Below are positions 1-9,089 of a stretch of 64,000 bases of DNA, in pieces. Below the pieces are notes generated by a model that was not told the origin of the DNA, ran no database searches, and saw only the letters and a list, made by a program, of their open reading frames with translations. The position numbers were made by a program, and so were the translations under genes. Position 1 is the first letter of the stretch, and every line of letters begins with the position of its first letter. This DNA comes from Aromatoleum toluvorans (GTDB lineage Bacteria; Pseudomonadota; Gammaproteobacteria; Burkholderiales; Rhodocyclaceae): positions 1 to 64,000 of the forward strand of contig NZ_WTVN01000008.1 in assembly GCF_012910905.1 (NCBI RefSeq), given 5' to 3'.

Positions 1-92
1 CCCGCAGACCCCATCATCGCCGCCCCCGAAAGCGCCATCGTCCGCCGCATGAATTCCCGCCGCGTGACACCGTTGTCATCGAACGCACTCAT
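1..92 (-). CDS. Tat-exported protein, N-terminal fragment (possibly a nitrate ABC transporter binding protein)
   Basis: Only the first 30 codons are inside the window; the gene runs off the left edge. The start at 92 is preferred over an in-frame ATG at 98 because the GGGAG ribosome-binding site (99-103) is correctly spaced only for 92. The peptide has a twin-arginine signal: a short polar N-terminus, TRREFMRR, then an Ala/Gly/Met-rich hydrophobic stretch. A Tat signal under an NtrC/sigma-54 style control region with a leader terminator resembles nitrate-assimilation operons, where a Tat-exported substrate-binding protein (NrtA family) is common. That identity is inference; the visible residues prove only Tat export. 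Confidence 0.6.
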   Translation of the reverse strand, partial: MSAFDDNGVTRREFMRRTMALSGAAMMGSA

Positions 93-113
93 CTTCATCT
101 CCCTGCAGGCCAG

Positions 114-170
114 AAAAACAAAAACGGCGCACACCGCCGCAGAAGGATTCCTGCGGGGATGGACGCCGTT
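114..170 (-). terminator. Intrinsic terminator inside the leader of the Tat protein gene (candidate attenuator)
   Basis: On the minus strand, outer arms AACGGCG (170-164) and CGCCGTT (129-123) enclose an inner pair CCGCAG/CTGCGG (156-151 and 142-137). They are followed directly by TTTTTGTTTTT (124-114). The hairpin lies between the predicted sigma-54 start site (about 240) and the ribosome-binding site (99-103), so it would stop transcription unless overridden. It may also simply end the upstream pqq cluster. NasT-type ANTAR proteins act on leaders built this way, and one is encoded at 4732-5307. Confidence 0.65.
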
Positions 171-249
171 GTCCGTAGTTTGCACAGCCCCGCACCGGGA
201 CCGGTCAATCTGCTGTCGAACCGCCGTTGATCCGACTCAAGCCATCTTT

Positions 250-266
250 AGCAGGTCGTGTGCCAA
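250..266 (-). promoter_or_regulatory. Sigma-54 (-24/-12) promoter
   Basis: The minus strand reads TTGGCAC, ACGAC, CTGCT. The GG of the -24 element and the GC of the -12 element are exactly 10 nt apart, as RpoN requires. The predicted start site is near 240, giving a leader of about 150 nt before the Tat protein gene. The 311-nt stretch 93-403 holds this promoter, the leader terminator and the NtrC-like site; I see no gene in it. Confidence 0.65.
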
Positions 267-353
267 GGCTTCACAAACGGGCGAGAAGCGTTTATTGACA
301 GTCACTTAGGGAGATTCCGGGCTATCCGGACAAGATGGTCTCAGCGTAGCGAC

Positions 354-370
354 CGCACTATTGCAGTGCA
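354..370. promoter_or_regulatory. NtrC-type enhancer site
   Basis: CGCACTATTGCAGTGCA contains GCAC-N7-GTGC, the spacing of the NtrC consensus (TGCAC-N7-GTGCA), with only the outermost base off. Its centre is about 120 nt upstream of the predicted sigma-54 start site, a normal distance for an NtrC enhancer. Only one such site was found. Confidence 0.5.
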
Positions 371-403
371 CAAGATCGCCCCGCCGCACCACTTGCGCGC
401 CGC

Positions 404-1246
404 TCAGCGGCCGGGTGCGTGGCGCCGCAAGGCCCGCAGCAGCCAGGAATCGTGAGCCAGTAGCGCGCGATGAACCTGCACGAGCGTCGCGCCCGCGGCG
501 AGCCGCGCCTCGGCTTCGTCGAGCGAATCGATGCCGCCGACGCTGATCAGGCAGACCCGCGGGTCGATGGCCGCCGACAGCACGCGCAGCGTCGCGCAGG
601 CATTGCGCCGCGCGTCGTGGCCTTCGGTCGACACGAGCAGGCCATCGACGCCCGCCGCGACAAACACGTCGGCGACGGCGATCAGGGACGCTGCGTCACC
701 GTCGAACCAGCGCGACGGCAGCTTGGCCACCAGCGGAAGCGGCCGCCGACGATGCCGCGCGAGCCGGTCGCGCAGCTGCACCGCCGCGCCGGCCAGGTCC
801 GCGAAACGCGCCGGCGACGGACAGTCGCGGCCGGGGTTAAGCGTCACGTAATCCGCGCCGGCGTGGGCGGCGCGCAGCACCCGCAGACAGGCGTGTTCCG
901 CGTCGTCCCAGCCGACGTGGCGCGGCCTGCCGATGCTGACGCCGCACCGCACGCCGCCCGCAGCCCGCCGCGGGAGCACAGGACATCCGTCCGCCCGCGC
1001 GAGCGTGCCGATCTCCACCGCACCGAGCCCGAGACGCTGCGCATCGCCGAGCAGCCGCCCGCGCCGGTCGAACCCCGCGGCCAGGCCGACCGGAGAGGCA
1101 AAGCGCAGCCCCATCGCGCTGACCGGACCGAATGGCCCCACCGCGTCGCCCCCATCGTCCGTACGCCGCGCGATGCGCTCAAGCCGCGCCACCGCCCAGC
1201 GGGTGCGCAGCGCGCGCGGCGTCAGCGGCGGTACGCCCATCGGCAT
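404..1246 (-). CDS. Dihydroorotate-dehydrogenase-like flavoprotein, diverged
   Basis: This 280-residue protein has the class 2 PyrD fold signature: PVGLAAGFD near 52-60, a conserved Lys in AKLPS (175), VGGIDS (237-241) and AGATLVQVHRALL (251-263), which together form the FMN site. The orotate pocket is not conserved. The expected NRxGFNN and NxSSPNT segments read differently (LNPGRDCPSP at 136-145), the ATN motif is VST, and the Lys after GFD is Arg61. It is therefore probably an FMN oxidoreductase with another substrate. The start overlaps the stop of the SerC-like gene (TGATG), so the two are translationally coupled. It is the last gene of the pqq cluster. Confidence 0.75.
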   Translation of the reverse strand: MPMGVPPLTPRALRTRWAVARLERIARRTDDGGDAVGPFGPVSAMGLRFASPVGLAAGFDRRGRLLGDAQRLGLGAVEIGTLARADGCPVLPRRAAGGVRCGVSIGRPRHVGWDDAEHACLRVLRAAHAGADYVTLNPGRDCPSPARFADLAGAAVQLRDRLARHRRRPLPLVAKLPSRWFDGDAASLIAVADVFVAAGVDGLLVSTEGHDARRNACATLRVLSAAIDPRVCLISVGGIDSLDEAEARLAAGATLVQVHRALLAHDSWLLRALRRHAPGR

Positions 1247-2358
1247 CACGCCGCCCGGAGGCCGTGCCGGCGCGCGAAGGCCCTCAGGAAGGCGACGAGC
1301 GCGTCGACGGCGGCGTCGGCGACGCCGTTGTAAAGGCTCACGCGCACGCCGCCGACGTCCGGGTGTCCGCGCAGGTCGTGGAGCCCGGCCGCTTCGGCCG
1401 CCTGCAGGCACAGCGCGGTCTGCGCCTCGTCGGCGAGCCGGAAGCAGGGATTGACGTGCGAGCGAGAGGCGCGATCGACAGGCATCACATACGTGCCCGC
1501 GCCTTCCGCGAGCGCCGCATACACCGCGTCGCTGCGCCGGCGGGCCGCCTCGGCCATCACCGCGACGCCCCCGCGCGCCTCGATCCAGTGCAGCATGCGA
1601 TGCGCGACGAAGATCGGGAACACCGGCGGCGTGCACAGCCGCGAGTCGGCGGCGGCCTGCGCCGCGTAGTCCATCACGCGCGGCGTCTCGGGCCGTGCCC
1701 GGCCCAGCAGCCGCTCATCGACGATCACGAGCGTCAGCCCCGGCGTGCCGATCGTCTTCTGCGCCCCCGCATACACCAGCGACAAGCGCGCGAAGTCGAG
1801 CGGCCGCATCAGCAGGTCCGAGGTCATGTCCGCGACGAGCGGCACCGGCAGCACGGGAAGCTCGCGGAACTGCAGGCCGTCCGCGGTTTCGTTGCTCGTG
1901 ACGTGGCAGTACGCGGCGCGCGGATCGACCCGCCACTCGCCGACATCCGGAATGCGGCCGGAGGCCTGCACCGCGATCGACACTTCGGCGTAGCGCCTCG
2001 CCTCCGCGATCGCGCGGCGCGACCAATGGCCGCCGTCGACGTAGCTCGCCTGCCGCGCCGTGCCGAGCAGGTTCAGCGGCAGCAGCGCAAACTGCGCGCT
2101 CGCGCCGCCGGCGAGGAACAGCACGCGAAACCGGTCCGGGATAGCGAGCAGGCGGCGCAGGCAGGCCTCGGTCTCTTCCTGCAGAGCGCGGAAGGCCGGC
2201 GACGTGAACGGCAGGCTCAGGACGGAGCCCCGACCCGCACGGCACGCCGCCGCAACGTCCGCCGCGACCTCGTCCGGCAAGGGCCCCGCCGCGGCGGAAA
2301 AGCTGAAACCCGACACGTTCCGCAGCACCGCCGCCTCAGCCAAAGAGGGCGACGCCAT
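1246..2358 (-). CDS. Phosphoserine-aminotransferase-like PLP protein, diverged
   Basis: The 370 residues align along the length of SerC. It keeps GGASAQF (84-90), TSNETADG (154-161), ADMTSDLL (176-183), the PLP lysine K201 in YAGAQKTIG, and VGGVRVSLYNG (335-345) with the conserved Arg339. Three of the four residues that bind the substrate phosphate in SerC are gone: the usual SHRGKEF reads PFTSPAF (50-56), and the usual GHRSVGG reads GHPDVGG (331-337). Only His332 remains. PLP chemistry looks possible but phosphoserine is unlikely to be the substrate. The gene overlaps the upstream membrane protein gene by 23 nt and is coupled to the PyrD-like gene. Confidence 0.75.
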   Translation of the reverse strand: MASPSLAEAAVLRNVSGFSFSAAAGPLPDEVAADVAAACRAGRGSVLSLPFTSPAFRALQEETEACLRRLLAIPDRFRVLFLAGGASAQFALLPLNLLGTARQASYVDGGHWSRRAIAEARRYAEVSIAVQASGRIPDVGEWRVDPRAAYCHVTSNETADGLQFRELPVLPVPLVADMTSDLLMRPLDFARLSLVYAGAQKTIGTPGLTLVIVDERLLGRARPETPRVMDYAAQAAADSRLCTPPVFPIFVAHRMLHWIEARGGVAVMAEAARRRSDAVYAALAEGAGTYVMPVDRASRSHVNPCFRLADEAQTALCLQAAEAAGLHDLRGHPDVGGVRVSLYNGVADAAVDALVAFLRAFARRHGLRAA

Positions 2359-2842
2359 GGGCCCCGGCCCCCATGAAGAACAGCACCGGGATCGACAGCA
2401 TCGTATTCACGCGCGCCGACAGGAAGGTCACGCGCGACGCCCGCAGGCGCTCGTCGATCGGCGCCGGCACGAAGCCCAGCACGCGCTGCTGGTGCGGCCA
2501 CAGCACGAACCACAGGTTCGCCACCATCAGCGTCGCGATCCACATCCCCAGCCCGAGCGGCGCGAGCGCGCCGTGCAGGCTCAGCGCGTCGCCCAGCCAG
2601 CCGCGCTGCCACAGGATCAGCGCACCGCTCGCCCAGGTCAGCAACGAGGCGTAGCGGAAGGCGCCGTGCTCGCGCTGCAGTAGCACGCGCTGGCGCGGGC
2701 TCTCCGGGTCCGACAGGTCGGCCGCAACGAGCGGCACGTAACGCGGCCGCGTCACCGCGGTCGCGTAGTTGTGCCCGATCCACACCAGCGCCCCGAGAAA
2801 ATGCAGCCAGCGCGCGACGACCTCGAACAGCACGCTCTCCAT
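2336..2842 (-). CDS. PuuD-like integral membrane protein
   Basis: This 168-residue protein has about four membrane segments. It contains motifs seen in the membrane domain of PuuD (urate hydroxylase) and relatives: an N-terminal RWLHFLGALVWIGH, the segment MVANLWFVLWPHQQRVLG, and RVNTMLSIPVLFFM near the C-terminus. The cytochrome c part of full PuuD is absent. A strong AAGGAG sits 6 nt before ATG 2842. Its histidines (in RWLH, IGH and WPHQQ) might bind haem, so it may pass electrons for the redox enzymes of the cluster; that role is inference. Confidence 0.65.
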   Translation of the reverse strand: MESVLFEVVARWLHFLGALVWIGHNYATAVTRPRYVPLVAADLSDPESPRQRVLLQREHGAFRYASLLTWASGALILWQRGWLGDALSLHGALAPLGLGMWIATLMVANLWFVLWPHQQRVLGFVPAPIDERLRASRVTFLSARVNTMLSIPVLFFMGAGAHGVALFG

Positions 2843-2853
2843 CGCCCGCTCCT

Positions 2854-2946
2854 TCAGCCCGCGATGCGCACGAGGACGGCAAGCACCGCCGTCAGGGCGG
2901 CGCCCAGCAGCACCGTCACCAGCGACGAATCGAACACCCTAAGCAT
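2854..2946 (-). CDS. 30-residue single-span membrane peptide in the pqq cluster
   Basis: A 30-codon frame begins with ATG at 2946 inside the last codons of pqqE (8-nt overlap) and ends with TGA 11 nt before the PuuD-like gene. It has a GGGAG/AGAGG ribosome-binding site. The peptide starts MLRVFDSSL, continues with one hydrophobic span rich in Val, Leu and Ala, and ends RIAG. Its position between two well-made genes, its site and its start overlap support translation. I recognise no family; it could be a subunit or anchor for the neighbouring membrane protein. Confidence 0.55.
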   Translation of the reverse strand: MLRVFDSSLVTVLLGAALTAVLAVLVRIAG

Positions 2947-4096
2947 GATCGCCCTCTCCCGACCGCTGCAGCCGCGCATTGCCTGCGGTGCGCATCACCA
3001 GCGGCACGACGGTGCGCCCCGGCGCATGCGCACGCTCGACCGCGTCGCCGATCAGGTGATGGTGCGGCGACCGCGAACAGGCCGGATCGGTGTTCGCCGC
3101 GTCGCCGGTGAGCAGGAAGGCCTGGCACCGGCAGCCGCCGAAATCCGTCTCCTTGTCGTCGCACGAGCGGCACGGTTCGCGCATCCACTCGTCGCCGCGG
3201 AACTTGCGGAAAGTCGGCGACTCGTTCCACAGCCAGTCGAGACTCTTCTCGCGCACCGTCGGGAAATCCAGCCCCTCGATCGCGCGCGCCTCCTGGCAAG
3301 GCATCGCCGCGCCGTCCGGGCCGATCGTCAGGTGGATCGCGCCCCAGCCGTTCATGCACGCCTTCGGCCGCCCCTCGTAATAGTCGGGGATCACGAAGTA
3401 GATCGTCATGCGGTCGCCCACGCGCTCGCGCATCTGCTGCACCGCGTGCTCGGCCGCCTCGATCTGCGAGCGCGTCGGCATCAGCTCGTCGCGGTTCAGC
3501 AGCGCCCAGTTGTAGTACTGCAGGTTCGCGAACTCGAGGTAATCGACGCCGAGGTCGGCCGCCAGTTCGAGGATGTCCGCGACCTGGTCGATGTTGTGGC
3601 GGAACACCGGCACGTTCAGCACCATCGGGAAGCCGTGCGCCTTGATCCGGCGCGCCACGTCCAGCTTCAGGTCGTGCACGCGCGCCCCGACCAGCCGGTC
3701 CGTGAGCTCGCGCTCGCTCGACTGCAGCGACAGCTGGATCTGCTTCAGGCCCGCTTCCTTCAGCTTCACGAGCCGCGCCTCGGAGAGGCCGACGCCGGAC
3801 GTGATCAGGTTCGTGTAGTAGCCGAGCGCGGTCGCATCCGCGACCAGTTCCTCGATATCGTCACGCAGCAGCGGCTCGCCGCCGGTGAAGCCGAGCTGCA
3901 GCGCCCCCAGCTCGCGCCCCTCGCGCAACACCCGCTTCCATTCGTCGGTCGTCAGCTCCTCGCCCTTGCGGCGCGCATAGTCGACCGGATTGCTGCACCA
4001 CGGGCACTTCAGCGGGCACTCGTACGTGAGCTCGAGCACCAGCCACAGCGGCTTGCCCTGCCCGTCAAGCCTGACGACGGATCCATCCTTTGGCAC
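2939..4096 (-). CDS. pqqE: PqqA peptide cyclase, radical SAM enzyme
   Basis: PqqE makes the first step of PQQ biosynthesis, a carbon-carbon bond between the Glu and Tyr side chains of PqqA. The 385 residues show the radical SAM cluster motif CPLKCPWC (residues 28-35), GFTGGEPLL, and the C-terminal SPASM-type cysteines in CMNGWG, CQEA, CRSCDDKETDFGGCRC and DPAC. The start is GTG at 4096, chosen for the strong GGAGGTG just upstream. It overlaps pqqD by 32 nt. About 30 residues after the last cysteine extend beyond the conserved core. Confidence 0.95.
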   Translation of the reverse strand: MPKDGSVVRLDGQGKPLWLVLELTYECPLKCPWCSNPVDYARRKGEELTTDEWKRVLREGRELGALQLGFTGGEPLLRDDIEELVADATALGYYTNLITSGVGLSEARLVKLKEAGLKQIQLSLQSSERELTDRLVGARVHDLKLDVARRIKAHGFPMVLNVPVFRHNIDQVADILELAADLGVDYLEFANLQYYNWALLNRDELMPTRSQIEAAEHAVQQMRERVGDRMTIYFVIPDYYEGRPKACMNGWGAIHLTIGPDGAAMPCQEARAIEGLDFPTVREKSLDWLWNESPTFRKFRGDEWMREPCRSCDDKETDFGGCRCQAFLLTGDAANTDPACSRSPHHHLIGDAVERAHAPGRTVVPLVMRTAGNARLQRSGEGDHA

Positions 4097-4355
4097 GGAA
4101 CACCTCCAGAAACTTGTAGACGCCCGTCGCGACCGTATCGTCGTCGCCGGGATAACGGGCCTGCAGCGCCGCCACGATCGCAGCGCCGCTGCGGCCGTCG
4201 CAGTGCTCGATGATGTCGGCCGCCGTGCGGTTCAGCTTCACGATGCCTTCCGGGTAGAGCAGGACATGGGCGTCCTGCGTCGGCTCCCAGCGGAAGAGGT
4301 ACATCGGATTGAGGCTGAAACGGTCCTCGGCAGGCAGCCGGTTCGACTCGTTCAT
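4065..4355 (-). CDS. pqqD: PqqA-binding chaperone PqqD
   Basis: PqqD binds the PqqA precursor and presents it to PqqE. The 96 residues show the RiPP-recognition fold: FRWEPTQDAHVLLYPEGIVKLN, TAADIIEHCDG and a C-terminal helix ending in KGWIRR. ATG 4355 is chosen over a more upstream frame start because AAGGAG is well placed before it. It lies between pqqA and pqqE; pqqB and pqqC, which normally precede pqqD, are not here. Confidence 0.93.
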   Translation of the reverse strand: MNESNRLPAEDRFSLNPMYLFRWEPTQDAHVLLYPEGIVKLNRTAADIIEHCDGRSGAAIVAALQARYPGDDDTVATGVYKFLEVFRAKGWIRRQA

Positions 4356-4403
4356 GCGCAACACTCCTTCGCGCGACAAGGGCGGCGCCGGGCCGCCCCG
4401 CCG

Positions 4404-4478
4404 TCAGCGCACGTAGACGTAGGCCGTCACTTCAAAACCAAGACGGATGTCGCAATACGCGGGATCGATCCACTGCAT
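4404..4478 (-). CDS. pqqA: PQQ precursor peptide PqqA
   Basis: A 24-residue peptide starts MQWIDPAYC and ends GFEVTAYVYVR. It has the invariant Glu and Tyr (E-V-T-A-Y) that PqqE crosslinks and that become the PQQ skeleton. A GAGGAGG ribosome-binding site precedes the ATG. The gene lies 48 nt upstream of pqqD. A cysteine at position 9 replaces the Thr or Ile common at that place and is a small oddity. Confidence 0.93.
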   Translation of the reverse strand: MQWIDPAYCDIRLGFEVTAYVYVR

Positions 4479-4644
4479 GGGCTGCCTCCTCGTTCATCGA
4501 TGGAAGGACCGGCCGGACGACCGGTCCGCAGCCATCTTCCCGGATCGGTCAGGCCGCCGAATCGGGCGAATCAGGAAGCGGACATCGCCCCCGGCATGAA
4601 GCGAGGGTCGCGAAAATCATGAATTTGGCCGCCGCGACGCGCCT

Positions 4645-4662
4645 CGTTGACGCGCGTCAACG
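4645..4662. promoter_or_regulatory. Perfect 18-bp palindrome upstream of pqqA
   Basis: CGTTGACGCGCGTCAACG is a perfect inverted repeat in the 253-nt gap between pqqA and the ANTAR gene, about 170 nt upstream of the pqqA start. No T-run follows on either strand, so it looks like an operator for a dimeric regulator, not a terminator. Nearer pqqA, GGACCGG and CCGGTCC around 4506-4527 can form a leader hairpin. I could not place a convincing sigma-70 or sigma-54 promoter in this gap. Confidence 0.4.
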
Positions 4663-4731
4663 CGGGCCGCTTCGCACCGTTGCAGTGCGTTCTGGGGGCG
4701 GGGTGCACCATCGCGGCGCCCCCGGAAGACA

Positions 4732-5307
4732 TCAGAGCAGGTACTTCGCCATGTCGAGCAGGTCCTGCGCGACCGCCGCCATCGGCTTCGCGCGCTCCAT
4801 CGCGAGCTTGCGCAGCGCCGCGTACGCTTCGGCCTCGTCCATGCCGCGCGACTTCATCAGCACTCCCTTCGCGCGCTCGATCAGCTTGCGTTCGGACAGC
4901 TTCTTCGTCGCCGCGGCAAGCTCCGCACGCACGGCCTGGTGCTCCTCGAAGCTCGCCACCGCGACGTCGATGACCGGCTTCAGGCGTTGCGGATCGAGCC
5001 CATCGACGACGTAGGTCGACACGCCCGCCTTCACCGCCGCGCGGATCGTGTCCTGGTCACCTTCGTGCGCGAAGATGATCACCGGGCGCGGCATCGCGGC
5101 GTTCATCACCGCCAGGTTCTCCAGCGTGTCGCGCGACGGCGCATCGGTCTCGATCAGGATCACGTCGGGCCGGATCGCCTCGATCTGCGCCGTCAGATCG
5201 GCGGACGACGCCAGCACCGCGGCCACCTGATGGCCGGCGAGCGCCAGCCCGGCGCAGATTTCCGCCGCCCGGGCCCTGGATTCATCGATGACGAGTACGC
5301 GAAGCAT
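4732..5307 (-). CDS. ANTAR-domain response regulator (NasT-type antiterminator)
   Basis: The 191-residue protein has a receiver-like N-terminus (VLVIDES, then IRPDVILIETDAPS, which keeps an Asp near the phospho-acceptor place). A coiled linker leads to a C-terminal ANTAR RNA-binding domain (ERKLIERAKGVLMKSRGMDEAEAYAALRKLAM). ANTAR proteins bind paired hairpins in leaders and stop terminator formation; NasT controls nitrate assimilation and is usually held by NasS. No nasS lies beside it here. ATG 5307 is used; GTG 5313 is in frame. Its likely target is the terminator-bearing leader at 114-240, which is inference. Confidence 0.8.
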   Translation of the reverse strand: MLRVLVIDESRARAAEICAGLALAGHQVAAVLASSADLTAQIEAIRPDVILIETDAPSRDTLENLAVMNAAMPRPVIIFAHEGDQDTIRAAVKAGVSTYVVDGLDPQRLKPVIDVAVASFEEHQAVRAELAAATKKLSERKLIERAKGVLMKSRGMDEAEAYAALRKLAMERAKPMAAVAQDLLDMAKYLL

Positions 5308-5370
5308 GAGCACATTCTCGCAAGATTCGCGCCGACACGCAGCTGGCGACCACGCCGACCGCGTGCCGCC

Positions 5371-6174
5371 TCAACCGCCGCGCTGGCGCCGCGCCTCGAA
5401 CAGGCAGATACCGCTCGCGACCGACACGTTGAGGCTCTCGACCGTGCCCAGCATCGGAATCTTCGCCAGCTCGTCGCAGGTCTCGCGCGTGAGCCGGCGC
5501 AGGCCCTCGCCCTCGGCCCCCAGCACCCACGCGACCGGCCCCTTCTGGTCGATCTCGTACAGCGACTTCTCGGCCTCGCCCGCCGCGCCGACCACCCACA
5601 CGCCGGCCTCCTGCATCTCGCGCAGGGCACGCGCGAGGTTGGTCACGGTGATGTAGGGCACCGAATCGGCCGCCCCGCTCGCCACCTTCACCGCGGTCGC
5701 GTTCAGGCCCACCGCGCGGTCCTTGGGCGCGACCACCGCATGCGCGCCGGCTGCATCCGCGACGCGCAGGCACGCGCCGAGATTGTGCGGATCCTGCACG
5801 CCGTCGAGCACCAGGATCAGCGCATTCTCCTCCAGCACGTCGAGCACGTCGGCGAGCTTGATGTCGCGGCTGCGCGCATCGACGCGCGCGACCACGCCCT
5901 GATGGCGGCGCGTGCCGACCATACCGTCGAGGCGATCCGCCTCGGCCTGGATCATGCGCACCTTCTGCGACTCGGCGAGCCGCACGACATCCTTCGCCCG
6001 CGCATCGCTGCGGCTCGACGACAGGTACAGCTCGAACACCGCCTCGGGATCGCGGCGCAGCTTCCCCAGCACGGCATGGAAGCCGTAGATCAGGCGCGAC
6101 TCTGCGCGCCCACCCGGCGCGTCGGCGTTGCCCGCATGCTGCGGGCGGGAACGGTTTGAAGGTTTGTCAGCCAC
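5371..6174 (-). CDS. rlmB: 23S rRNA (guanosine-2'-O)-methyltransferase RlmB
   Basis: RlmB methylates Gm2251 in the peptidyl-transferase loop of 23S rRNA. The SpoU/TrmD-type knot is clear: LILVLDGVQDPHNLGACLRVADAAGAH (motif 1), then WVLGAEGEGLRRL (motif 2) and PMLGTVESLNVSVASGICLFE (motif 3). The N-terminus carries the substrate-binding domain starting LIYGFHAVLG. GTG 6174 (267 residues, AGGA upstream) is preferred; an in-frame start at 6210 would overlap rnr by 44 nt. It forms an operon with rnr. Confidence 0.93.
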   Translation of the reverse strand: MADKPSNRSRPQHAGNADAPGGRAESRLIYGFHAVLGKLRRDPEAVFELYLSSSRSDARAKDVVRLAESQKVRMIQAEADRLDGMVGTRRHQGVVARVDARSRDIKLADVLDVLEENALILVLDGVQDPHNLGACLRVADAAGAHAVVAPKDRAVGLNATAVKVASGAADSVPYITVTNLARALREMQEAGVWVVGAAGEAEKSLYEIDQKGPVAWVLGAEGEGLRRLTRETCDELAKIPMLGTVESLNVSVASGICLFEARRQRGG

Positions 6175-8743
6175 GGCGTTTCGTTTTCCTGGTGGATGTT
6201 GCGGTTTCACTGTTCGTTGCGGCCGCAGCGGCCACTGCGGCCTTCTTCGTCTTCGCGGTCGGGGCCTTCGCGGTCTTGTCGGTCTTCGCGGATTTCACCG
6301 GCTTCCCGACCTTCTTCGCCTTCGCCGGCTCGGCCGCAGGTGTCGCCTTGGCCCGCTTCTTCGCCCCGTCCGGCGCCTTTACAACGGCGGCCTTTCCGGC
6401 CGATTTCGCCGCTCCCGGATTCGCCGTCACTGCGACGGCCTCGGCGGCCCGCTCCGGCGCCTTGGGGGCCTTGTCCTTCGCGGTCTTGCCGACCCGCTCC
6501 GTCGGACGCGACGCGCCTTCGATCAGGCGGAAATCGATCTTGGTCGTCTCCAGATCGACCCGCACCACCTGCACGCGCACGCGGTCCGACAGGCGGTGGC
6601 GCACACCGGTGCGCTCGCCCGCGAGCTCGTGGCGCGTCTCGTCGAAGTGGAAATAGTCGCTGCCGAGGTCCGAGATATGGACCAGCCCTTCGATGAAGAT
6701 GTCGTCGAGGGCGACGAAGAGGCCGAAGGGTACCACCGCCGACACGCTGCCGGTGAATTCCGCGCCCACCTTGTCCTGCATGTAGTAGCACTTCAGCCAC
6801 GCCACCACGTCGCGCGTCGCATCGTCCGCGCGGCGCTCGGTCGAGGAGCAGTGCAGGCCGATGTCGTCCCAGTCGCCCGCCTCGTAGGTGCGGTTCTCCA
6901 GCGCCGCCTTGATCGAGCGATGCACCAGCAGGTCCGGGTAGCGCCGGATCGGCGACGTGAAGTGCGTATAGGCCTCGTACGCGAGCCCGAAGTGGCCGAC
7001 GTTGTCGGGGCTGTACACCGCCTGGCGCAGCGAACGCAGCATCACCGTCTGCAGCAGCTGCGCATCCGGCCGGTCCTTCACCTTCTCCAGCAACTTCGCG
7101 TAATCGCCCGCCTTCGGCTCGTCGCCGCCGCCGACGCCAAGGCCGAACTCCGCGAGAAACCCGCGCAGTTTCTCGAGCTTCTCGGGCGTCGGCCCCTCAT
7201 GCACGCGATAGAGCGCCGGATGCTCGCGCTCCTGCAGGAACTCCGACGCGCACACGTTGGCCGCGAGCATGCACTCCTCGATCAGGCGGTGCGCGTCGTT
7301 GCGCACCTCGGGGACGATGCGCTCGATCTTGCCGTCGGCGTCGAAGATCATGCGCGTCTCGGTGGTCTCGAAGTCGATCGCGCCGCGCTTGGCGCGCGCC
7401 TTCAGCAGCACGCGGAAGAGCTTGTCGAGGTTCTCCAGATGGGGCAGCAGTTCCCCGACCACCTCGAGCGCCGCCGCATCCTTGTCGTACAGGGCCGCCG
7501 CGACCTGCGTGTAGGTCAGGCGCGCGTGCGAGAACATCACCGCCGGGTAGAAGCGGTAGGCCTTGATCGCCCCGGTCGGGCCGATGCTCATGTCGCACAC
7601 CATGCACAGGCGCTCGACCTGCGGGTTCAGCGAGCACAGCCCGTTGCTCAGCTTCTCCGGCAACATCGGGATCACGCGGCGCGGGAAATACACCGAGTTG
7701 CCGCGCTCCTGCGCCTCGTCGTCGAGCGCCGACCCCGGCTGCACGTAGTGCGACACATCGGCGATCGCCACGACGAGCCGGTAGCCGCGCCCCTGGCGCT
7801 CGCAGAACACCGCATCGTCGAAGTCCTTCGCCGTCTCGCCGTCGATCGTCACCAGCGGCAGCTGCGTGATGTCCTCACGCCCAATCCAGTCCTTCTTGCG
7901 CACCTTCGCGGGCAGCTTGCGCGTCTCGGCCTTCGCCTCGGACGAGAACTCGAAAGGCAGCTCGTGCTTGCGCAGCGCGATCTCGATTTCCATTCCCGGA
8001 TCCGCGTAGTTGCCCAGCACCTCGATCACGCGCCCGATGGGCTGCGCAAACTTGGTCGGCTGCTCGATCAGCTCGATGGTGACGACCTGCCCCGGCCGGG
8101 CCTTCTTGCCCCCCGGCGCCACGAGGATGTCCTGCGCGATGCGCCGATTCTCCGGTACGACCACCTGCACGCCGTGCTCGTTCAGCACGCGGCCGACGAT
8201 GCGCGTATTCGCGCGCTCCAGCACCTCGACGACCTTCCCTTCCGGGCGGCCGCGGCGATCGACTCCGGTGATGCGCACGATCACGCGGTCGCCGTGCAAC
8301 ACCTCGCGCATTTCCTTCGGCCCGAGGAAGATGTCCGGATGCCCGTCGTCGCGGATCACGAAGCCGTAGCCGTCGGCATGCCCCGACACGCGCCCGCGGA
8401 TCAGGTCCGCCTTGTCCGGCAGCAGATAGGCATCGCGGCGGTTGCGCATCAGCTGCCCGTCGCGCTGCATCGCGCGCAGGCGCCGCTCGAACAGCCCCGA
8501 CTCCTCGTCCTGCACGTCGAGCGCGGCACACAGCTGCGCGAAGCTCATCGGCACGCCGTGCTCGGCAAGCGCCTGCTCGACGTACTCGCGGCTCGGCAGG
8601 GGGTTATCGTACTGCGCGGATTCGCGCTCGAAGAAGGGGTCGGCACGCCGGATCGCGCTCGGCTCGCGTTCGCTCGGGGCGCGCTGCGCGGTCTGCGCGC
8701 TTGTTTTCACTTTTTCTTTTTTCATTGTTGTACTCGTTGACAT
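6167..8743 (-). CDS. rnr: Ribonuclease R
   Basis: RNase R is a 3'-5' exoribonuclease that degrades structured RNA. The 858 residues contain an N-terminal winged helix, cold-shock domains (GRVSGHADGYGFVIRDDG), the RNB catalytic domain with the metal-binding TAKDFDDAVFCE and DVSHYVQPGS segments, and an S1 domain (VGAEFTGSVSAVVPFGLFVAL). About the last 115 residues are a Lys/Ala/Pro-rich low-complexity tail, longer than in typical RNase R. The start at 8743 has no strong ribosome-binding site; an in-frame ATG lies at 8725. The tRNA-Leu promoter overlaps its start codon on the other strand. Confidence 0.93.
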   Translation of the reverse strand: MSTSTTMKKEKVKTSAQTAQRAPSEREPSAIRRADPFFERESAQYDNPLPSREYVEQALAEHGVPMSFAQLCAALDVQDEESGLFERRLRAMQRDGQLMRNRRDAYLLPDKADLIRGRVSGHADGYGFVIRDDGHPDIFLGPKEMREVLHGDRVIVRITGVDRRGRPEGKVVEVLERANTRIVGRVLNEHGVQVVVPENRRIAQDILVAPGGKKARPGQVVTIELIEQPTKFAQPIGRVIEVLGNYADPGMEIEIALRKHELPFEFSSEAKAETRKLPAKVRKKDWIGREDITQLPLVTIDGETAKDFDDAVFCERQGRGYRLVVAIADVSHYVQPGSALDDEAQERGNSVYFPRRVIPMLPEKLSNGLCSLNPQVERLCMVCDMSIGPTGAIKAYRFYPAVMFSHARLTYTQVAAALYDKDAAALEVVGELLPHLENLDKLFRVLLKARAKRGAIDFETTETRMIFDADGKIERIVPEVRNDAHRLIEECMLAANVCASEFLQEREHPALYRVHEGPTPEKLEKLRGFLAEFGLGVGGGDEPKAGDYAKLLEKVKDRPDAQLLQTVMLRSLRQAVYSPDNVGHFGLAYEAYTHFTSPIRRYPDLLVHRSIKAALENRTYEAGDWDDIGLHCSSTERRADDATRDVVAWLKCYYMQDKVGAEFTGSVSAVVPFGLFVALDDIFIEGLVHISDLGSDYFHFDETRHELAGERTGVRHRLSDRVRVQVVRVDLETTKIDFRLIEGASRPTERVGKTAKDKAPKAPERAAEAVAVTANPGAAKSAGKAAVVKAPDGAKKRAKATPAAEPAKAKKVGKPVKSAKTDKTAKAPTAKTKKAAVAAAAATNSETATSTRKTKRRG

Positions 8744-8764
8744 TCAAATTCTGCCGCTTATAAT
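8737..8764 (+). promoter_or_regulatory. Consensus sigma-70 promoter of the first tRNA-Leu
   Basis: TTGACA (8737-8742) and TATAAT (8759-8764) are both perfect, 16 nt apart, and end 11 nt before the tRNA. The -35 box overlaps the start codon of the divergent rnr gene. Confidence 0.85.
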
Positions 8765-8775
8765 GCGCGGCTCTT

Positions 8776-8860
<85 letters not shown>

Positions 8861-8870
8861 GTTCTACGGA

Positions 8871-8896
8871 AAAGCCGACCTTGTGTCGGCTTTTTT
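8871..8896 (+). terminator. Intrinsic terminator after the first tRNA-Leu
   Basis: AAAGCCGAC and GTCGGCTTT pair around a 5-nt loop and are followed by a T-run. This makes the first tRNA a single-gene transcript. Confidence 0.9.
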
Positions 8897-8965
8897 GTTG
8901 CTCTTTCGCGGCATCGGCCCCGATGCGAAGCCGGCAGCGTACCAACCCGTGCATAGCCATTCCGC

Positions 8966-8994
8966 TTGGCCGACGACGAAGTTGCCGCTATAAT
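8966..8994 (+). promoter_or_regulatory. Sigma-70 promoter of the second tRNA-Leu
   Basis: TTGGCC (8966-8971) and TATAAT (8989-8994) are 17 nt apart and end 10 nt before the second tRNA. The -35 box is weaker than that of the first copy. Confidence 0.75.
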
Positions 8995-9004
8995 GCCTGC
9001 TCTT

Positions 9005-9089
<85 letters not shown>

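Follow-up and report, generated by a model that had tools for sequence, protein, structure and literature searches.

How pyrroloquinoline quinone (PQQ) or a related cofactor might be finished where pqqA, pqqD and pqqE are joined by four unusual genes instead of by pqqB and pqqC is the question raised by one locus of Aromatoleum toluvorans. The locus lies at the beginning of the analysed stretch of 64,000 nucleotides (the window; contig NZ_WTVN01000008.1, here C106). Its seven genes ran on the minus strand from position 4478 down to 404, with short gaps or overlaps between neighbours, in the sequence pqqA, pqqD, pqqE, a 30-codon membrane peptide, a PuuD-like gene, a gene for a SerC-like pyridoxal phosphate (PLP) protein and a gene for a PyrD-like flavoprotein (the module). 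All seven genes reported in a preliminary description of the window were present in that order, and a family was matched for each except the microprotein; the genes that it had called fused proved to be adjacent or overlapping, with no fusion proteins. Our results suggest, with a probability of roughly 0.7, that the module is a second PQQ-making set for scarce O2, in which its own enzymes would replace PqqB and PqqC.

The early steps of PQQ synthesis were represented in full at the locus. The pqqA gene (4404-4478) encoded a precursor peptide of 24 amino acids with the C-terminus EVTAYVYVR, which contains the E-x3-Y motif (PF08042, 4.9e-10). The peptide chaperone PqqD (4065-4355) scored 83.8 bits with TIGR03859 (cut-off 46) and remained under the NF002535 threshold (85.5 versus 101 bits). 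The pqqE gene (2939-4096), which began with GTG and overlapped pqqD, encoded a radical S-adenosylmethionine (SAM)/SPASM protein (TIGR02109, 508 bits, cut-off 381.35) whose expected role is a crosslink between Glu and Tyr of PqqA. PqqA, PqqD and PqqE were all over curated cut-offs. The microprotein gene (2854-2946) had its ATG at 2946, overlapped the end of pqqE and encoded 30 amino acids with a single membrane helix. It was followed by the genes for the PuuD-like membrane protein of 168 amino acids (2336-2842; PF06181, 1.6e-7), the SerC-like PLP protein of aminotransferase class V (1246-2358; NF003764, 344.9 bits, cut-off 253), which was below the TIGR01364 threshold (312.4 bits, cut-off 443.6), and the PyrD-like protein (404-1246), a flavin mononucleotide (FMN) protein with the fold of class 2 dihydroorotate dehydrogenase (DHODH; TIGR01036, 88.3 bits, cut-off 200). 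Neither pqqB nor pqqC, taken as markers of the late steps, was found within the module locus. Since position 1 of the window is the first base of contig C106, the sequence beyond pyrD ended after 403 bases.

The lack of pqqB and pqqC, as first described, applied to the module locus and not to the genome. A classical operon of pqqA, pqqB, pqqC, pqqD and pqqE was found on contig C62 of the same genome, with pqqB and pqqC side by side (C62:86523-87431 and 87539-88231), which ruled out their genome-wide absence. The module is therefore a second PQQ cluster with duplicated early genes and different late genes. The genome also contained NarG over the cut-off and UbiV, and the host is probably a denitrifier. 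Clusters of this kind have been described in one paragraph of a 2025 paper (PMC12423496), where pqqAED-puuD-serC-pyrD clusters co-existed with pqqABCDE in denitrifiers, including Hyphomicrobium (among them H. denitrificans), Halomonas sulfidovorans, Stutzerimonas stutzeri, Methylophaga nitratireducenticrescens and Azoarcus sp. DN11. Section 2.9 of that paper finds it “tempting” to speculate that the clusters encode O2-independent final steps of PQQ synthesis, and the proposal is based there on transcription data and a few organisms. The window module has the published gene set alongside pqqABCDE and shares with those clusters the gene content and, probably, a denitrifying host. Full-text searches of the literature, with most subscription journals and all of bioRxiv outside their scope and most hits judged from listings, returned no further recognised description. 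The idea of anoxic PQQ synthesis is thus already in print as speculation, and no test of its function was found. To section 2.9 the present work adds the microprotein, a regulatory box, a wide census, loci that join pqqB and pqqC to the module, and a residue analysis; that section gives no biochemistry.

A scan of the PuuD-like alignment against genome contigs revealed 99 relatives, and 80 loci were kept. The titles among the relatives included Thauera, Azoarcus, Methyloversatilis, Methylotenera, Hydrogenophaga, Stutzerimonas, Pseudomonas, Marinobacter, Halomonas/Billgrantia, Methylophaga, Sedimenticola, Hyphomicrobium, Paramagnetospirillum and others, so that the hosts, judged by name, were alpha-, beta- and gammaproteobacteria, and many carriers were named after denitrifying or methylotrophic genera. 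The preliminary description had staked its reading on the conservation of the extra genes beside pqqADE in relatives, and such conservation was observed: all six larger genes were in the window's order in 66 of the 80 loci. Ten of the 14 exceptions were cut at a contig end (L044, L052, L058, L062, L074, L079, L093, L109, L113 and L122). One, L067, had no recognisable pqqA though 2.2 kb preceded puuD and 700 bases preceded pqqD. The last three lacked pyrD, or both serC and pyrD: the PyrD-like gene was absent from L099 and L112, where a metalloprotease gene followed serC, and the Paramagnetospirillum variant L077 (7252-9495) read pqqD-pqqE-pqqA-peptide-puuD with neither serC nor pyrD.

In a phylum-wide sample, a PF06181-type match was found in 81 of 397 genomes, and ortholog-level scores were reached in G000 and G083 only (370 and 214 bits), with all others at or below 107 bits; in the 79 further genomes, PF06181-type proteins formed a wide family with scores far below those of the module orthologs. 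In G083 a classical pqq operon, a PQQ alcohol dehydrogenase gene and an aldehyde dehydrogenase gene adjoined the module. A single-protein search with the PyrD-like sequence identified four carriers among 61 relatives, which is a floor because two genomes of the window's genus, G008 and G009, have a divergent module next to pqqB and pqqC.

The modules had their own type of PqqA and PqqE. GFEVTAY was present in all 75 loci where a pqqA was found (75 of 85 overall; nine of the remaining ten were contig-cut and the tenth was L067), compared with the classical signature E(V/I)T(M/L)Y in 17 readable rows. In a PqqE tree of 80 and 52 rows, module PqqE grouped apart from classical PqqE, barring one mislabelled row (C_L128, labelled classical, which is the PqqE of the L087 module) and one long branch (C_L145, left uninterpreted). 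The 30-codon peptide matched no Pfam or NCBIfam family. A microprotein was present between pqqE and puuD in 76 of the 82 loci with both genes in view, with the pattern D/E/N-S/T ... G/A-x-L-T/I/V ..., and in the other six the gap was short or the pattern was unmatched. Differences among its codons amounted to 29, 13 and 57% at positions 1, 2 and 3 (15-codon core, 72 loci, 380 pairwise comparisons), a distribution by which the microprotein is under selection as a protein. The membrane peptide of the preliminary description is thus a real, conserved microprotein. L043 and L058, second rows of one genome or title, were omitted from the PqqE tree, the microprotein test and the neighbour count below.

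The distinct PqqA signature, the separate group of PqqE and finishing enzymes different from PqqB and PqqC would all suit a module whose product is another, PQQ-like quinone, or a derivative bound to the membrane and used by a dedicated dehydrogenase, while classical pqqABCDE makes PQQ in parallel. We regard this explanation, one of the options in the preliminary description, as rather improbable. Four loci of three lineages had pqqB-pqqC in one gene run with the module and only one PqqA/D/E set in view. In L087, from a Sedimenticola metagenome-assembled genome (MAG), pqqB, pqqC, pqqA, pqqD, pqqE, the peptide, puuD, serC, pyrD, an M48-type metalloprotease and a creatininase-like gene followed each other on one strand. 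L084 (Motiliproteus) had pqqA, pqqD, pqqE, the peptide, puuD, serC, pyrD, pqqB, pqqC and a short pqqD-like frame. G008 and G009 had pqqB, pqqC, pqqA, pqqD, an alpha/beta hydrolase that by our reading is similar to proline iminopeptidase, pqqE, the peptide, puuD, serC and pyrD. With a single PqqA and a single PqqE in view for both finishing sets, these loci give the best argument for a module that uses the normal PQQ precursor, and their gene content points to PQQ as the product. Two further findings disfavour the PQQ-like quinone: pqqC was present in 47 of 50 carrier genomes (46 over the cut-off; the count covers 50 of the 80 loci), and the neighbouring dehydrogenase tested, in L105, was an ordinary PQQ alcohol dehydrogenase (TIGR03075, 797 bits).

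Several possible peptidases were observed at these and other loci. An alpha/beta hydrolase resembling proline iminopeptidase followed pqqD in pqqBCAD loci of the window's genus (L244, 7327-8334; L245, 7581-8561; L246, minus strand) and is a candidate PqqA protease. L245, in genome G012, had pqqB-pqqC-pqqA-pqqD at 5355-8561 with a module-type PqqA and no pqqE within the 12 kb fetched. A relative of M48-type membrane metalloproteases was located 3' of the module in L087 (11496-13460), L085 (4883-7067), L081 (11893-13501), L083, L099 and L112, and upstream on the opposite strand in L077. A putative creatininase-like gene followed the module in three loci; this label and a likeness to MftE are our presumption. 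The metalloprotease and the creatininase-like protein are possible trimming peptidases for crosslinked PqqA.

Of the 30 loci outside the pqqC count, 12 showed pqqBC or pqqE within the locus. In relatives not known as carriers, pqqC was over the cut-off in 18 of 55 (25 of 62 genomes before seven carriers, G008 and G009 among them, were taken out). A PQQ alcohol dehydrogenase was over the cut-off in 52 of 55 carriers. UbiV was present in 52 of 55 carriers (51 over the cut-off) versus 13 of 20 pqqC-positive relatives, or in 54 of 57 versus 11 of 18 when G008 and G009 were counted as carriers. Neither pqqC nor pqqB over the cut-off was found in the assemblies of G471, G477 and G487, which are two MAGs and one draft assembly and possibly incomplete; completeness values were absent for genomes reached via loci. 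G477 (L081) and G487 (L093) had PQQ dehydrogenases over the cut-off, although the module of G487 was cut before puuD, and these two are possible module-only PQQ producers or cases of assembly gaps.

Genes near the module were counted in 83 loci of at most 18.5 kb each, with names taken from identified representatives. The anaerobic ubiquinone genes UbiT, UbiU or UbiV were found in 19 loci, a PQQ alcohol dehydrogenase or ExaC in 23, the nitrate genes NarX or NarK-like in 8 and a divergent classical pqqE in 13, and any of these in 46 of the 83. UbiD relatives occurred in seven loci and UbiX relatives in six. The names NarX, NarK and response regulator denote best matches, each below its NCBIfam cut-off. 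In the window itself, an ANTAR response regulator gene was located upstream of the module on the same strand (4732-5313). Farther along, a tandem pair of tRNA-Leu (CAG) genes was found at 8776-8860 and 9005-9089, with 144 bases between them and similar frames across both copies.

An FNR/DNR-type box, TTGACGCGCGTCAA, was found at 4647-4660 as a perfect palindrome beginning 182 bases upstream of the pqqA start; the regulator names FNR, ANR and DNR and the box consensus are those that we take to apply. The exact sequence TTGAYNNNNRTCAA had this single occurrence in window positions 1-9000. Among 350-base upstreams of module pqqA from 75 loci (L043 and L011, from one genome, were both counted here and among the SerC- and PyrD-like residue rows), 39 had the exact box, 11 had it with one mismatch and 25 had neither, against 0.15% exact boxes expected from a Markov simulation. 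By comparison, the exact box was upstream of one of 31 classical pqqA genes (a set of 14 with none plus 20 with one, minus L128, L154 and L157, which have module-type peptides). Upstreams of housekeeping serC and pyrD, taken on the assumption that the match sits 1,500 bases into each locus, had it in none of 60 and with one mismatch in 6 of 60. The box is a putative binding site of an FNR-type regulator. Another motif, CCAAAGTNNTA, lay 86-98 bases before pqqA in 17 loci of Pseudomonas, Stutzerimonas or Billgrantia (20 matches over all loci), and may be a regulator site or an additional promoter.

A second alternative is that the module enhances or rescues classical synthesis when O2 is low, by extra PqqADE together with scavenging of stalled intermediates, with PqqC or traces of O2 still needed. 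The near-universal pqqC of carriers and the lack of an exact box at the joint pqqBC-module loci favour such a helper, but many stand-alone modules have redox and PLP enzymes placed behind an FNR-type box, which speaks against it, as do the three carriers without pqqC or pqqB over the cut-off, G477 and G487 with their PQQ dehydrogenases among them, though incompleteness may explain these. We consider the helper improbable.

The PuuD-like protein resembled half of the membrane domain of the urate oxidase and matched positions 172-236 of the 295 of PF06181. No cytochrome c match was found in it, so that it does not qualify as a PuuD urate oxidase. In 47 sequences H14, H24 and H59 were invariant and H117 was conserved in at least 90%; L109, a Rhodoblastus MAG locus with one stop codon inside its PuuD-like frame (1492-1992), was dropped from this alignment for that stop. 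The predicted helical model was confident, with a predicted local distance difference test (pLDDT) value of 92.2 and four long and three short helices, and a fold search of the PDB gave no match at E 0.001, so that any role of the conserved histidines in binding heme or a metal is a guess.

For the SerC-like protein, the residues His41, Arg42 and Arg329 (E. coli numbering), which we take to bind the phosphate of the substrate, were compared with those of housekeeping SerC. The position of His41 was Phe in 84 of 84 rows and that of Arg42 was Arg in none; at 329, Lys was found twice, other residues 81 times, a gap once and Arg never. Housekeeping SerC had His41 and Arg42 in 30 of 30 rows and, at 329, Arg in 22 and Lys in 8. 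The PLP contacts Lys198, Trp102 and Asp174 were all retained in 84 of 84 rows, as in a PLP enzyme of fold type I, and Arg335 in 82, with gaps in the remaining two. The protein was therefore rejected as a phosphoserine aminotransferase. Since the phosphate residues are lost and Arg335 is kept, a phosphorylated substrate is unlikely and an alpha-carboxylate likely, on residue roles as we presume them.

Asn111, Ser175, Asn177 and Asn246 of PyrD, in the numbering and with the substrate roles that we assume, were for the most part lost from the PyrD-like protein. The Asn111/Phe115 orotate-binding segment was deleted in 80 of 80 rows, Ser was present at the Ser175 position in 11, and at 177 and 246 Asn was outside the eight commonest residues, so that an ordinary dihydroorotate dehydrogenase was rejected. 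The FMN contact Lys217 was conserved in 80 of 80 rows and the checked glycine positions in 78 and 79. The predicted model (pLDDT 89.8) had E. coli DHODH (7t5k) as its best PDB match (E 6.3e-16), and by this model the PyrD-like protein keeps the FMN-barrel fold of class 2 DHODH. That an ordinary serine and pyrimidine gene pair drifted beside pqqADE and was misread as part of a module is very improbable and largely contradicted already: both proteins do come from housekeeping superfamilies, and a single SerC-type match was found in 13 of 55 carriers and none in G474 (E 1e-60 with TIGR01364 only, other SerC subtypes being outside the search), but the order is conserved across the three proteobacterial classes, the usual substrate residues are lost in both proteins, two SerC-type matches were present in 41 of the 55 carriers, and 45 of the 55 had a class 2 PyrD over the cut-off besides the module copy.

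As for the either/or of the preliminary description, both halves held in part: pqqB and pqqC do occur on another contig of the genome, and the module's additional genes most likely perform equivalent late steps by other chemistry. PqqB is an Fe-dependent hydroxylase and PqqC a cofactor-independent oxidase, as stated in PMC10906245, and the steps of PqqC need O2 according to the paragraph in PMC12423496. In a second PQQ-making set, PqqD and PqqE would crosslink Glu and Tyr of PqqA in the usual way, and the O2-requiring steps, hydroxylation by PqqB and ring closure with oxidation by PqqC, would be taken over by module enzymes whose electrons would enter the respiratory chain. The PuuD-like protein and the microprotein might oxidise the tyrosine ring, to which water would then add, in place of PqqB. 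The SerC-like PLP enzyme might bind an alpha-amino acid through the kept Arg335 and handle a cyclisation or an amine step. In the PyrD-like protein, the FMN enzyme might dehydrogenate the carboxylated N-heterocycle with ubiquinone as the acceptor, in place of PqqC. For PuuD, PMC4562309 reports urate oxidation without a catalase rise, the sign of H2O2, from which its authors infer electron transfer to cytochrome c. Our assignments of the three proteins are drawn by analogy, and we infer the identity of the product, the order of the steps and the electron acceptors. Taken to its full extent, the proposal is tentative: a complete O2-independent route from crosslinked PqqA to PQQ could exist, with oxygen atoms from water, half of a PuuD and a partner of 30 amino acids as a new tyrosine-ring hydroxylase acting by oxidation and hydration, ring closure by a former SerC, and aromatisation by a former PyrD with ubiquinone.

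Several observations weigh against a PQQ-making set for scarce O2. The absence of the PyrD-like gene from L112 and L099, and of both the SerC-like and PyrD-like genes from L077, indicates that not every part is always needed; the division of labour may vary by lineage, given such loci. NarG did not separate carriers from the others, which were mostly of the same genus (36 of 55 versus 14 of 25 over the cut-off, or 38 of 57 versus 12 of 23 with G008 and G009 as carriers). No exact FNR box was found in the scanned stretches of L087, L084, G008 and G009, and it was missing from 36 of the 75 other module upstreams. A helper role would also account for the co-occurrence with pqqC, and carriers lacking pqqB and pqqC cannot show that the module alone suffices. 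Kinship among the genomes makes the counts non-independent, and the Fisher tests, which assume independence, overstate significance.

Compared with known systems, the module shares PqqA, PqqD, PqqE and the E-x3-Y crosslink site with classical pqqABCDE, and differs in having membrane, PLP and FMN proteins in place of PqqB and PqqC. Mycofactocin is another peptide-derived redox cofactor made with a pair of PqqD-like and radical SAM proteins plus a flavoenzyme. The module follows the same logic, but its PqqE is a true PqqE by its cut-off, and membership in the mycofactocin family was rejected (MftC maturase model TIGR03962, 108.4 bits versus a cut-off of 265). The UbiTUV pathway of O2-independent ubiquinone synthesis rests on the same principle, an additional enzyme set for making a quinone cofactor without O2, whereas its enzymes and product are unrelated. 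The membrane domain is homologous to that of the PuuD urate oxidase as presented in PMC4562309, in which a domain of eight helices is joined to cytochrome c, in contrast to the module protein of 168 amino acids without one.

A 2024 paper (PMC11102522) states that PQQ biosynthesis requires O2 and that strict anoxia is therefore expected to limit the usefulness of PQQ methanol dehydrogenases. The present genomic evidence renders the published idea of anoxic PQQ synthesis testable, and direct genetic handles in laboratory denitrifiers are provided by the microprotein, by the FNR-type box and by the loci that combine pqqBC with the module. If PQQ is indeed made without O2, the conflict between the O2 requirement and the PQQ alcohol dehydrogenases of most carriers would be resolved, and three enzyme families would have reassigned chemistry. 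PQQ would then join ubiquinone among the cofactors that have one oxic and one anoxic route, and anoxic denitrifiers would be making a cofactor for which O2 is commonly said to be necessary.

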